Assembly: GCA_016866255.1 (NCBI GenBank)
Contig: VGMY01000005.1
Location: forward strand, 62,001 to 126,000
Length of the DNA stretch: 64,000 nt
Direction: 5' to 3'
Source of the DNA: Bacteroidota bacterium
GTDB lineage: Bacteria; Bacteroidota; Bacteroidia; Flavobacteriales_D; Crocinitomicaceae
Shown here: one piece after another, positions 8,725 through 21,093 of the stretch
Numbering within the stretch: position 1 is the first letter of the stretch
Layout: each line of letters starts with the position of its first letter
Made by a program: the position numbers and the translations under genes
The notes under the pieces: model-generated
What the model saw: only the letters and a program-made list of their open reading frames with translations
What the model was told of the DNA's origin: nothing
The model's database searches: none

Positions 8725-9181
8725 ATTTTTTTTTGCAACAAAGTTATGGTTTTAATAACTTGTTAGTAAAGGTGTTCAATTGATTTAACAACTCGTGAAA
8801 AATAACTGTTCGTTCAATGAATTATTTTATTAAGCAAAATAGTTTTGAAACCATCGTTATGAAAAAAGGAAAACTTTTATCGTATTTATAAGCAAAATAT
8901 ACACAACAGAAAAAAAATACAACATTTCCGTCAACCTCTGTTAATAGCAATACCCAATGCTCCGCTTACCAACAAATTTTATGTACGGTTTAATGTTAAC
9001 AAATTGTGGAAATTACGTTAGTTACCCTTGAGATAATAGGCTTATAATTCTTTTATCAACAAATGAACACACTTAATAATAGCAGCAATTTTTTTTTAAA
9101 TAAAATAATCTATAAATATTCTTGTTGTTCATAGAATTCTGTTTCGCAAATCTTTCACATTCTTTATTTTTGCTGTAAAAT

Positions 9182-12100
9182 ATGTCTTCGATTCATTCAA
9201 ATATTTCTTACCTGAAACAAGAAATTCAGCGGTTCTTAGATAAATACTATTTAAACCAGGCTATTCGTGGTTTATTATTGTTTTTAGCGATGCTTTTTTT
9301 CTCCTATTTGGTTTTTTCGAGTTTATCTTATTTTTTTGAATTTAACCAAGTTATTCGATTCATTTTTCTTTGTCTGTTCATCTTTTCAAATTTCTTTGTA
9401 TTGGTGCGTTGGTTTTGCTATCCTTTCTTACAGTCGAAAGCGCTTTTAAAAAGGAAAACGGATCTTGAGGCGAGTTATGTTATTGGCCAAATGTTTCCTG
9501 AAATTGCCGATAAACTCACCAACACATTGCAGTTGCACGAAGGAGCCAATTCAGTAGGTGGGGACAAGGATTTATTAGCCGCTTCTATTGGACAAAAAAC
9601 GAAACAATTGAAGGTGTTTGATTTTACGGAAGCGATAGATATTAGGTTAAATAGAAAATACCTCAAATACACCCTTCCTTCTTTTTTGACAGTTCTCTTG
9701 TTATCCCTTTTTATTCCCGTAATCCTGACTCAAGGAGGGTATAAAATGGTCCGTTTCGATAAAGAATTTTTACCGTTTTTATTTAAATTGGAAGCTGGTA
9801 ATACCACAGTAGAGGAAGGATCAGATATACCTGTGCGCGTCTCATTAGTTGGAGAGAGAATTCCTGAAAAGGTCTATTTGGTAACTGATCAGGGAAAATT
9901 TTTAATGAATAGATCGTTGAAAAATACGTTTCATTTTTCCCTGTTAAAAGTTAAATTATCCAGTTCCTTTTATTTTGAGGCAAACGGTTATGAGAGTAAG
10001 TCTTACAAATATCGAGTTACAGGAAAAAACATACTTGGGAAACTGAACGTGTTAGCACAGTACCCCAAATACTTAAATAAAAAAGACGTTTTTATTCAAA
10101 ATCCTGGAGACATAACCATCCCTGAAGGAACCGCGCTTACTTGGAAAGGAAATACCATTAATACACAATCGGTGACGTTGAGTTTTTTACAAAAAGTTAC
10201 CCGTTACTCACAACAAGCGTTTTCATTTCATCACAGCGTAAAAAATGCAGGGGATTTAATGTTGGTAATGGTCAATAAATTCAATAACAGAATCGATTCT
10301 TCGAAATTACACATAGCTGTTATTAAGGACGAATACCCAAACATTTTATTAAATGAAATTTCCGATTCCATTCAAGAAGGGGTTAAATATTTCACAGGTC
10401 AGGTAAGCGATGACTATGGAATCTCTTCCTTGCGATTTACGTATACCATAACACGAAAAGGCAAAAATGTGAAAACGGTAAATTTACCGGTGATGTTCAT
10501 TCCGGGAACGAAGAGTTCGTATTCTTTTGCGGTTGATTTTCGTCGTGAATCGGTTCAATTAGAGGATAACATCGAATACTTTTTTACTGTTTCAGATAAC
10601 GATGGAGTAAATGGTAAAAAATCCACGCGAAGTTGTATGGGACAGTATAGCCTACCTAGCTTGCAAGAATTAAATCAAGAAAGGGAATTAGATCAAGAAA
10701 AAACGGCCAGGGATATTGAAAAAATCATGGAACAAACCAAATCGTTCGAACGTGCTGTTGAGAAATTGAAAAAAGACGTTACTAATACCAAATCCAAAGA
10801 ATGGAACAACAAGCAACAAATTCAACAGCTAAAAGAAGAACAACAACAGCTGAACAATGCATTGGAACGCATAAAAGAAGAACTACAACAATCGACGCAA
10901 GATAAAAACCAACTTTCGGAAATGGACCAAGAAATTCTTGAAAAACAAGAAATGATTCAGAAGTTGTTGGATCAAGTAATGGATGAAGAATTAAAGAAAT
11001 TGTTGGACGAAATAGAGAAAATGTTTAATGAACGAGCTGATGCTGAACTCAAAAAAGAATTAGATAAATTGGATCAATCTTCGGAAAATATGACCAAGCA
11101 ATTAGACAGGACTTTAGAAATGCTTAAAAGATTGCAGGTTAATGAGCGAATAGACGATTTAGAAAAAGAGCTAAAGGAAACAGCCAAAATGCAAGAAGAA
11201 GTAACAAAGCAGGTTGATGAAAAATCAGGCAATAAAGAAGAACTTCTCAAAAAACAACAAGACATTAAGGATCGGTTTGATGCCATTCAAGAAAAACTGG
11301 ATGCGATCAAAAAATTAAACCAAGAATTGATGGATCCCTTAAAATTAGACGATACCCAAGCGCTCGAGAAATCCATTGATAATCAATTAGATAATGCACA
11401 AAAAGAACTAAACGACAATAAAAAAAACAAAGCCAAAGAAGCTCAACAACAAGCCGGAGACCAAATGGAACAGTTGGCCGATCAGTTGGATAGACAACAA
11501 CAAGCAAGCAATCAGCAGCAGGCGGAGGAGGATATGGAAATGTTGCGCCAAATTTTAGAGAGTTTAATGGTGTTGAGTTTTGATCAAGAATCCTTGATTG
11601 AACAATTTAGCCGAGTTAAATTTTCCGATCCTAAATACCGCAAATTGGGGAGAGAACAATTGCGCATTAATAACGAAACAGCAACCGTACGCGACAGTTT
11701 GTTAGCCTTGGCCAAACGCCAACCCAAGGTGGCTAGTTTTATTGATAAAGAATTGAGCGATATTTCGTTTGCACAGTCAGCGTCGATTGAAGCCATTGAC
11801 GACCATCGTTTAGGAGAAATCGTGAACAACGAACAACAAGTGATGACGGCGTATAATAACTTGGCTTTGTTATTAAATGAAGCGCTGCAAGAAATGCAAT
11901 CACAATCGCAAAATAGTATGCCAAGTAGCGGTACCTGCAGTAAACCGGGAAAGGGAAAACCGAAACCGGGCAACATGTCTACCGGCGATATGAAAGAGAT
12001 GTTAAAGAAACAACTTGAGCGCCTTCAAAAAGGACAAAACCCCGGGGGAACCAAACCGGGAGACAAAGAAGGGAACAGTCCAGGAATGAAACCGGGGAAC

Positions 12101-12557: not shown

Positions 12558-12971
12558 ATGGATTTAAAATTAGCTTGCCTCTACGAAATTAAATTGCCAT
12601 CGAATCCGGCCTCTATTGCCGAAGTTGAGAATTTGATTGAAAGAACTTGCTCTGAATTAAAGGTAAACGAAGATTCATTTGGCAATATTTTAATTTCGGT
12701 AACCGAGGGGGTAAATAATGCTATATTACACGGAAACAAAGGGGATTTAGCAACCTTTGTGACTTTAAGTATCTTAAGCAATGATGCTTGGATTTGTTTT
12801 AGGGTACAAGATCAAGGTACGGGTTTTGATCCCGATTCAATACCGGATCCCACTGCACCAGAAAATTTGTTGAAAGAAAACGGAAGGGGTATTTTTTTAA
12901 TGAAGAGTTTATCGGATAATCTTGTTTTTGAAAAAAACGGCGCTTTGGTAAACATCTATTTTCGACGATGA
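12558..12971 (+). CDS. HATPase_c_2 ATP-binding protein (RsbW/SpoIIAB anti-sigma-like)
   Basis: VTEGVNNAILHGNKGD (N-box), FRVQDQGTGFDPDSIPDPT, ENGRGIFLMKSLSDN. Confidence 0.85.
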   Translation: MDLKLACLYEIKLPSNPASIAEVENLIERTCSELKVNEDSFGNILISVTEGVNNAILHGNKGDLATFVTLSILSNDAWICFRVQDQGTGFDPDSIPDPTAPENLLKENGRGIFLMKSLSDNLVFEKNGALVNIYFRR

Positions 12972-13399
12972 TTTCTTTTTCTTTTTATTCGAAGGAATAT
13001 AAAGACCTGCCTTTGGACAATTTGTTAAACGTTTTACCTTCCTTAGTGCATGAAGAGGGTGGAGAAGTGGCAGCATTGTCGATCATCTTTTGTTCAGACG
13101 AAGAAATGTTAGAACTTAATCAACAACACTTAAAACACGATTATTATACAGATATTATCACGTTCGATTATTCTAACAAGGACTATATTTCAGGTGATTT
13201 ATTTGTTTCTATTGATAGGGTTTTGGATAACGCGGTTAGTTGGAAAACCACCTTTGAAGAGGAATTTCATCGGGTTGTTTTTCACGGGGTATTACATTTG
13301 ATGGGTTATCAGGATAAAGAGGATCATGAAATAGCGCTCATGAGGCAAAAAGAAAACTACTACTTAACAAAATTGTTTCACGTGAAACATGGAAGATAG
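12968..13399 (+). CDS. ybeY: rRNA maturation endoribonuclease YbeY
   Basis: HxxxHxxxxxH motif FHGVLHLMGYQDKEDH; C-terminus LFHVKHGR is encoded by a parS site. Confidence 0.92.
   Translation: MISFSFYSKEYKDLPLDNLLNVLPSLVHEEGGEVAALSIIFCSDEEMLELNQQHLKHDYYTDIITFDYSNKDYISGDLFVSIDRVLDNAVSWKTTFEEEFHRVVFHGVLHLMGYQDKEDHEIALMRQKENYYLTKLFHVKHGR
13374..13389. promoter_or_regulatory. ParB-binding parS centromere site, TGTTTCACGTGAAACA
   Basis: Exact 16-bp palindrome matching the well-known parS consensus; lies inside the last codons of ybeY, 10 bp before the mnmG start codon. Confidence 0.88.
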
Positions 13400-15268
13400 A
13401 TGCTGGGTACGTACGACATAATTGTGGTGGGAGCCGGACATGCGGGTTGCGAAGCCGCTTATGCTGCTGGAAAGATGGGCAGTAAAGTTTTGCTGATAAC
13501 CATGAACATGAACACCATCGCTCAAATGAGTTGTAATCCTGCTATGGGAGGCGTTGCGAAAGGGCAAATTGTTCGGGAGATAGACGCCTTAGGGGGGGGG
13601 TCGGGAATGGTTAGTGATAAAAGTGCATTACAATTTAGAATGCTTAATTGTTCTAAAGGTCCAGCGATGTGGTCACCGCGTACCCAAAACGACCGCATGA
13701 TGTTTGCCGCTGAATGGCGTGCCTTGTTGGAACAAAATCCTATGGTGGATTTTTGGCAAGATATGGGTGTTGGTATCATCGTTAAAGGCGGTTTAGCCGT
13801 TGGGGTGAAAACCAGTTTGGGAATTGATATTTACGCGAAAGCCATAGTGCTTACTAACGGTACTTTTTTAAACGGCATCATTCACCTTGGGGAAAAACAA
13901 TTTGGCGGAGGCAGAGCCGCCGAAAGGGCGGCTACGGGAATTACTGAAGATTTAGTAAAATTGGGTTTTGAAGCCGGACGAATGAAAACGGGGACCCCTC
14001 CAAGAGTGGATGGAAGGTCGCTGAATTACACGGTAATGGAGGCGCAACACGGCGATGAAAATCCAAGTAAGTTTAGTTTTTGGAGCACAACAGCGTTATC
14101 ACGGCAATTACCCTGTTATATTACCTACACCAATCCGCAAACCCACGATTTATTACGAAGTGGGTTTGACCGATCTCCCATGTTTAATGGGGCAATTCAA
14201 AGCATCGGTCCAAGATATTGTCCAAGTATCGAGGATAAAGTCAATCGGTTTGCTGAACGGGATCGGCATCAAATATTTGTCGAACCGGAAGGTTGGAATA
14301 CGGTGGAGATATACGTGAACGGGTTTAGTACGTCGTTGCCGGAAGATGTACAAGTAAAAGCAATTAAATCCATCCCTGGGTTTGAAAACGCAAAATTATT
14401 TCGTCCGGGCTATGCGATTGAGTACGATTATTTTCCTCCCACCCAACTTAAGCATACGCTGGAAACAAAAAGGATTGGGGGCTTATATTTTGCTGGGCAA
14501 ATTAATGGGACTACAGGTTATGAAGAGGCAGCCTGTCAAGGCTTAATGGCAGGAATTAATGCCCATTTGAAAATTCGAGAAAAGGAAGCTTTCATTCTTC
14601 AGCGAAGCGAAGCGTATATTGGGGTTTTAATCGACGATTTGGTCACCAAAGGAACCAAAGAACCTTATCGTATGTTCACCAGCAGAGCTGAGTACCGCAT
14701 TTTGTTAAGGCAAGATAATGCAGACCTCAGGTTATCGAAAAAAGGCGCGGAACTGGGTTTATTGAACGACGCGCAACGGCAGATGGTAGAGGCAAAAGAT
14801 GCGCGTATTGTTGAACTTAAAAAAGTACTACGGACCACAGGTATAACACCGAGTGAGATCAATGCGTCTTTGGAAAGGATTGATTCTTCCCCCATTCAAC
14901 AACAAATGAAAGGAGCTTCGCTCATTACACGTCCAGGGGTTAATTTAATTATGTTAGCCGAGTGCAATCGTGAAATTCAGGATTTTTTAACCGTACAAAA
15001 AGTGGAAGATGAGGTAAGGGTTCAAGCCGAAATTCAATTAAAATACGAGGGATATATTGATCGGGAAGAAGAAAATGCCGCTAAAATGTTGCGTCTGGAA
15101 AAAGTTGTGATTCCACAAGATTTGAATTACGGTCAGTTGAAAAGTCTTAGCAGTGAGGCGATTGAAAAACTCACGGAAATAAAACCTGTAACGATCGGAC
15201 AAGCTTCAAGAATTTCCGGGGTGTCTCCGAGCGACATTTCGGTTCTTTTGATCTATTTAGGTAGGTAA
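13400..15268 (+). CDS. mnmG: tRNA uridine-5-carboxymethylaminomethyl modification enzyme MnmG (GidA)
   Basis: [75 protein letters not shown]. Confidence 0.97.
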
Positions 15269-19374: not shown

Positions 19375-21093
19375 TTAAAATTTACACGTAATGCCAGCTA
19401 AAACTTGGATAGGGATTACCGGATAATTATAAAACTGAAGATAACGTTGAGCAGCAAGGTTATTGATTTGTAAGAATCCTGATAAACGCTTGTTGTAGCG
19501 ATATTCAATACCTAAATTGGCATCAATAATGCTCCCTAGCTTAACAAAGTACTGGTTGTTTTCGAAGGATGTCTTAGGGGTGGACGCATCGACTTTTGCG
19601 AATCGATTCATGGCCAGGTTTACCTCTGTTTTAACCAACAGTTTATCGAACAGATTATACGTTCCTCCCAGAATAACCTCAACGTTGGGTAAATTCCATG
19701 CTCTTGCTTCGTGCAACATCTCGTAACTATGGTAGCGAGCAATGAGATTGACGTTGAGTTTGGATCCGGACTGGTAGGTTAATTTTCCTTCTATTTTTGT
19801 ATGATTCAATGAGTCATAAACTAAGGTAAAACGGTTGCCAGAGGACATTAAGGTGTCCGTAACAAAGAATGCGCGGTTGTTGATTTTGATAAAGTTTGCG
19901 CTAATACCTCCATGAAAATTCTTCCCCATTTTTGCGTTAAAACCCAGTTGAATGTCGTAAGGGTTAATTTCATTTTGAATTAAAACGTTAGGGTTGATAT
20001 ACGGATTTAAGGAGTATAAGGAGAACAGTGAAATTTGTTTAACCTGTCCTCCAAGGCTTAAAAATGGAACGAAAGAATTTTGAGCAAACGCATATTGTGC
20101 GTATACGTTTGGAAAAAAATAAAGCTTCGTTGAACCACCCCCATCAATACTAACGTTAAAACCTGCATCGACGAAAAAGTGTTGGTTGAGCAAATAACTT
20201 TTTACTCCCGGTTGAATATCAAAAATCGGGTTTTTACGCAGTAAACCGCTGTCGGAGAGCATTAAAATCGAATCTAAAATACCGTAAGCATATCCGTTAT
20301 ATCTAAGGCCTAATAAGCCATGAAAGGTATTTTTTTCGGTTTTATAATAGCCCAACATGTTCACGTTGAAAGCTTGTTCCCTGGCTTTCCAGTCTTTCAA
20401 ACTGTCGAGATAGGGTGTCCCGGTAGAGGTGTAACGAAAGTTTGCGGTGGCACGAACGTTGAAACGAGCGGTATCTCTGGGATGGGTATCGATGACCAAT
20501 TTTGCATCAACGGTTTGATATCGTTGAGCAAGGGAATCCGCATTAGCGTTTTCTTGGGTTAGGCCGTAATAATGAAATCCGTGGTTGAGGTAGTGCAGTT
20601 GGCCCAACAGCGTAGTTGAACGTTGAAAGGTTTCAAAAGTCCCAAGTAAGGAGGTTTTATCAAATCCTGCAGGGGCATAACGTTGATTTTCCCGGTCTTT
20701 AATCGTTCCCAAAAAGCTCAAGTGTTTCGCGTGAAACCCATAGTAACTGTTGCGAGACCTTGTAGAATTGACGTACAATTCAGCAAAAGGCATTAAAGCC
20801 GAACCCATTCCTGCCTTGAGGTAAAAAGGATAGAATTTATTCAGCATTTGCTCTGTTTCCACCGAGGCAGCTTCGATCGTGTCTTTTTTAATCACAATGC
20901 GCTGGTTCAAATCGAGTAATGGTCTGGTTATTACAGCATTTTGGGGAATATTATCGAGAATTTTAGGATAGGAAGGAATCCTGCTGTTTCGTTCTATATC
21001 GCGATTTCCTTTGCCCTCGGTTTCAAAAATATCGGCCTGTGAAAAGGCAATGGAATTAAATGTTGTGAAAAGCAAAATGAACAATAAACGCAT
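19375..21093 (-). CDS. Outer-membrane beta-barrel (TonB-dependent-receptor-like) protein
   Basis: Signal peptide MRLLFILLFTTFNSIAFSQ; alternating beta-strand pattern; C-terminal strand ending QVLAGITCKF; start ATG 21093 next to the TPR gene stop. Confidence 0.68.
   Translation of the reverse strand: MRLLFILLFTTFNSIAFSQADIFETEGKGNRDIERNSRIPSYPKILDNIPQNAVITRPLLDLNQRIVIKKDTIEAASVETEQMLNKFYPFYLKAGMGSALMPFAELYVNSTRSRNSYYGFHAKHLSFLGTIKDRENQRYAPAGFDKTSLLGTFETFQRSTTLLGQLHYLNHGFHYYGLTQENANADSLAQRYQTVDAKLVIDTHPRDTARFNVRATANFRYTSTGTPYLDSLKDWKAREQAFNVNMLGYYKTEKNTFHGLLGLRYNGYAYGILDSILMLSDSGLLRKNPIFDIQPGVKSYLLNQHFFVDAGFNVSIDGGGSTKLYFFPNVYAQYAFAQNSFVPFLSLGGQVKQISLFSLYSLNPYINPNVLIQNEINPYDIQLGFNAKMGKNFHGGISANFIKINNRAFFVTDTLMSSGNRFTLVYDSLNHTKIEGKLTYQSGSKLNVNLIARYHSYEMLHEARAWNLPNVEVILGGTYNLFDKLLVKTEVNLAMNRFAKVDASTPKTSFENNQYFVKLGSIIDANLGIEYRYNKRLSGFLQINNLAAQRYLQFYNYPVIPIQVLAGITCKF

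Follow-up and report, generated by a model that had tools for sequence, protein, structure and literature searches.

Why should a perfect 16-bp palindrome lie at the very end of the gene for an rRNA maturation RNase, and is it kept there for the protein or for the chromosome? The palindrome, TGTTTCACGTGAAACA, occupies positions 13374 to 13389 (no strand assigned) of the window, that is, the entire 64,000-nucleotide stretch of a Bacteroidota genome that was analyzed, and it is an exact match to the chromosomal parS consensus TGTTNCACGTGAAACA. It is located in the 3' end of ybeY (positions 12968 to 13399, plus strand), which encodes the RNase, a protein of 143 amino acids (PF02130, E 1.5e-26; TIGR00043 over the cut-off), and the mnmG gene, also called gidA (13400 to 15268, plus strand; TIGR00136, 843.5 bits), starts on the base after the ybeY stop codon. 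The original prediction described an exact parS in this position, and the sequence agrees with it. We estimate a probability of about 95% that the palindrome serves as a functional chromosomal parS, the centromere of a ParABS segregation system. In such systems, CTP-bound ParB loads at parS and extends along kilobases of DNA, and the resulting complex is segregated by ParA. This reading is drawn from an exact and unique site, the presence of ParA and ParB, proximity to the origin and a conservation that is positional and independent of reading frame.

The exact 16-mer occurs only once in the 2.34 Mb draft genome, where base composition predicts about 0.001 copies by chance, and the draft consists of 50 contigs at 94% completeness, so that additional parS copies could be missing from it. 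The proposed search for variants shows no enrichment: sequences with up to two mismatches number three genome-wide versus four for a reversed control pattern. One near-match with two mismatches, at 20723 to 20738, is attributed to chance: 0.46 matches with up to three mismatches are expected in the window, and the two-mismatch class is at control level genome-wide. The expectation that parS sites would cluster was not upheld, as this genome has a single recognizable site and no cluster; most of its congeners have two, about 35–50 bp apart. A role as a hairpin or terminator was also rejected, with an RNA fold z-score of -1.58 and no terminator-like site.

A genome lacking parB, which the original prediction had named as an outcome that would count against it, is not what was found. 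A chromosomal-type ParB of 282 amino acids is encoded (profile search with TIGR00180, E 8.5e-56, over the cut-off); its motifs include GERRFRA and ENIQR, and a gene for a ParA-like ATPase is directly upstream of parB. The parAB pair is on a different contig from parS. In Caulobacter ParB, the residues that contact parS are Q162, K171, S172, R173, N178, G201 and R204, and R173 together with G201 distinguishes parS-binding ParB from Noc (PMC7383237). We placed the equivalent residues by alignment to solved ParB structures and by residue spacing. The helix-turn-helix of the ParB encoded here has K-S-R, an N five residues after the R, and G-H-A-R, spaced like the Caulobacter contacts, with R at position 173 and G at position 201, i.e., the parS type and not the Noc type; elsewhere, A replaces G at 170, H is at 179 and K is at 184. 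Noc acting at an NBS site was considered and rejected, as Noc needs Q173/R201-type residues, the protein has R/G and the site is of the parS type. The protein also scores 236.5 with the Noc profile TIGR04285, below the cut-off of 315.

SMC-ScpA is one usual downstream partner of ParB-parS. In this 94% complete genome, a search for SMC with TIGR02168 gave only weak matches below the cut-off, and a search for ScpA with PF02616 gave none. The best matches to PF02463 (SMC_N) are proteins of 547 and 380 amino acids, the former of which reads as RecN. Hence the combination of SMC and ScpA that SMC-ScpAB loading calls for was not detected in the 94% of the genome represented. This agrees with a report that describes no known condensin in two gut Bacteroidetes (PMC10197239).

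Is the site near the replication origin? GC skew was measured on the contig that carries parS and, for four relatives, on sampled stretches of 20 kb. The cumulative skew of the full 126.5 kb contig (the window plus the remainder) is V-shaped, with its minimum at window position 9394 (C5:71394; no strand assigned), a likely origin neighborhood that is 4.0 kb from parS. Adjoining this minimum is an AT-rich intergenic stretch between rpiB and a DUF4175-like gene (8725 to 9181, no strand assigned; GC 25.8%), which is a candidate oriC only. It has three one-mismatch DnaA-box-like nonamers, and no exact DnaA box (TTWTNCACA) was found near the skew minimum; therefore, we do not claim an oriC. Among the relatives, G057, which belongs to the same class and has a main contig of 3.47 Mb, shows a skew that changes sign from the 20-kb sample beginning at 2.53 Mb to the one beginning at 2.55 Mb; its parS is at 2.567 Mb. 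The sampled change in the congener G409 is placed to within about 100 kb, the change in G309 is broad and the skew of G210 is weak overall. We conclude that some 4 kb separate parS from the likely origin of replication, in keeping with the suggestion that the window is origin-proximal. The outcome named in the original prediction as speaking against it, a motif not enriched near the skew minimum, did not hold.

This location brings up another explanation. In the Bradyrhizobiaceae, TGTTTCACGTGAAACA is beside gidA at a GC-disparity switch, where an Ori-Finder study reads it as paired DnaA boxes (PMC2275245). The palindrome in the window is likewise origin-proximal and beside mnmG, and it might by analogy be a pair of DnaA boxes or a piece of oriC. 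However, the same palindrome is the ParB consensus in characterized bacteria (PMC7022226), a ParB is present, and the skew minimum, close to the AT-rich stretch, is at a distance of 4 kb. We give this explanation hardly any credence.

The parS reading gains further weight from related genomes. The exact 16-mer is present in 202 of 393 genomes across the phylum versus two of 393 for the reversed control. In addition, 80 Bacteroidota mnmG loci were gathered by MnmG similarity alone, blind to parS, and scored for the parS core, TTYCACGTGRAA. Of the 77 usable loci, 65 have the core in the 250 bp upstream of mnmG; in the 250 bp downstream of the gene, it is present in 43 of the 80, against a background of 0.0056 per 250 bp elsewhere in these loci; many of the compared sequences are kin, and so these counts are of non-independent events. 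Where a site exists, ybeY adjoins mnmG in 62 of 67 loci, and in the 13 loci without a site on either side, no ybeY was detectable next to mnmG (some of these loci are truncated by the contig end). Nine of the 11 genomes tested from these site-less loci have parS-like sites elsewhere. For example, one Saprospiraceae genome has a parS pair directly behind ybeY in a stretch from which mnmG is absent. That the site tracks the presence of ybeY beside mnmG, together with the Saprospiraceae case, indicates that it belongs to the ybeY-mnmG junction, and that parS can remain with ybeY once this junction is broken.

A CACGTG-centered palindrome directly before mnmG, with ybeY and mnmG adjacent, could also be the operator of a local transcription factor that controls mnmG. 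We regard this as very improbable, in view of the 43 loci with a site just downstream of mnmG, the multi-site arrays at two loci (L026 and L092), the Saprospiraceae pair that stays behind ybeY without mnmG, and a sequence that equals the parS consensus in a genome with a parS-type ParB.

Two other patterns were observed. In Chryseobacterium and many Flavobacteriaceae, mnmG is flanked by parS copies, one preceding the gene and the other immediately following it (among others at L011, L016, L018, L022, L029, L031, L032 and L034–L036). A genome of Saprospiraceae origin (locus L204, positions 1503 to 1610) carries three sites with changed cores, TTCCATGTGGAA/TTCCACATGGAA, spaced 47–49 bp apart, and no normal parS; a change in parS specificity is possible.

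We now return to the protein. Since parS overlaps the end of ybeY, its letters are translated into the YbeY tail. The in-frame reading is (T)TG TTT CAC GTG AAA CA(T), or L-F-H-V-K-H, followed by G-R-stop, and so the FHVKH translation given in the original prediction is correct. FHVKH comprises residues 137–141, directly past the YbeY domain, because the PF02130 match covers residues 29–136 and reaches the end of the profile.

Is the peptide or the DNA conserved? Most genomes in the genus of the window have two parS copies 35–50 bp apart, which are mostly perfect, and the flanking and intervening bases diverge. The first copy usually gives YbeY a terminal VSRET or VPRET, and the second is intergenic. 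Instead, a single copy that is read as FHVKH is found in the genome of the window and in one congener (L128). In a comparison with congeners, the window is shorter by one base between the lysine codon and the parS that follows it, and the frame is shifted as a result. Plain recombination of two ancestral parS copies was considered and does not by itself produce this frame; the alignment points to a one-base difference at the edge of parS as its source. Many Flavobacteriaceae have TGTTCCACGTGGAACA, translated as FHVEQ or FHVEH. In one genus (L166–L169), the third frame is used: the tail is KSFT-stop, and a TGA within the palindrome is the ybeY stop codon. Thus, all three ybeY frames are used by parS among the relatives, and in still other genomes, parS is outside ybeY. 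A genus of the family to which the window belongs (L154–L161) has a parS copy further inside ybeY, in a conserved portion of the gene, and a second one about 136 bp beyond it; the inner copy reads NVSRETEL in two translations.

The codons tell the same story. Tails of the FHV[KE] or V[SP]RE type use palindrome-preserving codons in 58 of 58 cases among all loci, a set in which many were retrieved for their parS, and in 23 of 23 cases among loci that were not chosen by parS. From the codon usage of the window, the probability of such codons would be about 0.07 or 0.009 per tail. The sole variant tail, VSCET (L117), comes from a locus where the first copy has decayed and the second is near consensus. 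Of the two things expected from a comparison of YbeY C-termini, the codons of FHV[KE] are indeed always palindrome-preserving, but the FHVKH peptide is not conserved across the Bacteroidota. Synonymous divergence of the FHVKH codons, which would have spoken against parS, was not seen, the palindrome codons being kept without exception.

One could argue that YbeY makes functional use of FHVKH as its C-terminal tail and that the palindrome is a coincidence of codons, as FHV[EK][HQ] tails are common in the Flavobacteriaceae and in one genus from the family of the window. However, many relatives have the same DNA in the two other frames (VSRET/VPRET and SFT-stop) or outside ybeY, the tail is past the end of the YbeY domain, and all such tails use palindrome codons although codon usage permits others. 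A functional tail is thus very unlikely. The same DNA read in different frames implies that it is the DNA that selection maintains, not the peptide, and so the YbeY tail is best read as a probable by-product of the centromere. In this, the idea in the original prediction that the centromere may shape the end of the protein is supported.

Taking the palindrome as parS, we infer from the sequence that ParB would bind, spread and promote segregation from this site. A ParB dimer would bind the palindrome and close as a CTP-dependent clamp, which would slide off and allow further ParB to be loaded across the ybeY-mnmG-origin region; ParA would then separate the ParB-coated origins of the new chromosomes. 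A ParB domain over the ybeY-mnmG operon is plausible, and ParB may affect the transcription of these two genes. Translation of the parS that crosses the 3' end of ybeY would give YbeY a short tail beyond its folded domain, the sequence of which would be fixed by whichever frame reads parS and which is probably useless to YbeY. More broadly, we lean toward the view that the ybeY-mnmG junction is an old centromere locus of the entire Bacteroidota, independent of SMC-ScpAB at least here, and that selection on it has repeatedly rewritten YbeY C-termini in all three frames, leaving translated centromere as protein tails throughout the phylum.

Several consequences follow. In fragmented Bacteroidota genomes, the ybeY-mnmG parS would be useful for marking the origin, as dnaA is an unsafe guide there (PMC10197239). 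The locus also illustrates how an enzyme may owe its terminal residues to a DNA element, whatever peptide results. Finally, with apparently one parS and no SMC-ScpA detected, this genome offers a small system for asking what ParB-parS does without condensin loading.

Some of these features are already known: origin-proximal parS sites, parS sites within genes (PMC4368675) and the palindrome beside gidA in the Bradyrhizobiaceae (PMC2275245). The additions made here are the phylum-wide ybeY-parS-mnmG locus, the use of three frames and the lack of a detectable SMC-ScpA in the genome. The locus across the Bacteroidota and its three-frame use were not found in the openly searchable literature, and we do not claim priority.

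The chromosomal parS sites of Bacillus, Caulobacter, Pseudomonas and Hyphomonas are likewise origin-proximal and accompanied by ParA and ParB. The 16-mer in the window matches the Hyphomonas neptunium parS letter for letter and conforms to the consensus of the others (PMC7022226). Unlike those systems, this genome has one site found, parAB on another contig and no SMC-ScpA detected; a single oriC-proximal parS can nevertheless suffice for segregation (PMC4368675; PMC7022226). The Bradyrhizobiaceae have the same palindrome by gidA, but they are Alphaproteobacteria, and the accessible text mentions no overlap with ybeY (PMC2275245). Bacteroides caecimuris shares with the window a Bacteroidota host and an origin-domain parS, which was detected there by consensus in a Hi-C study that reports no known condensin; the genes around those sites are not discussed in the accessible text (PMC10197239). 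In Pseudomonas aeruginosa, nine of the 10 parS sites are in coding sequence (PMC4368675); the intragenic site described here differs from these in that it is tied to the 3' end of ybeY, where the frame that reads it varies from one relative to another.
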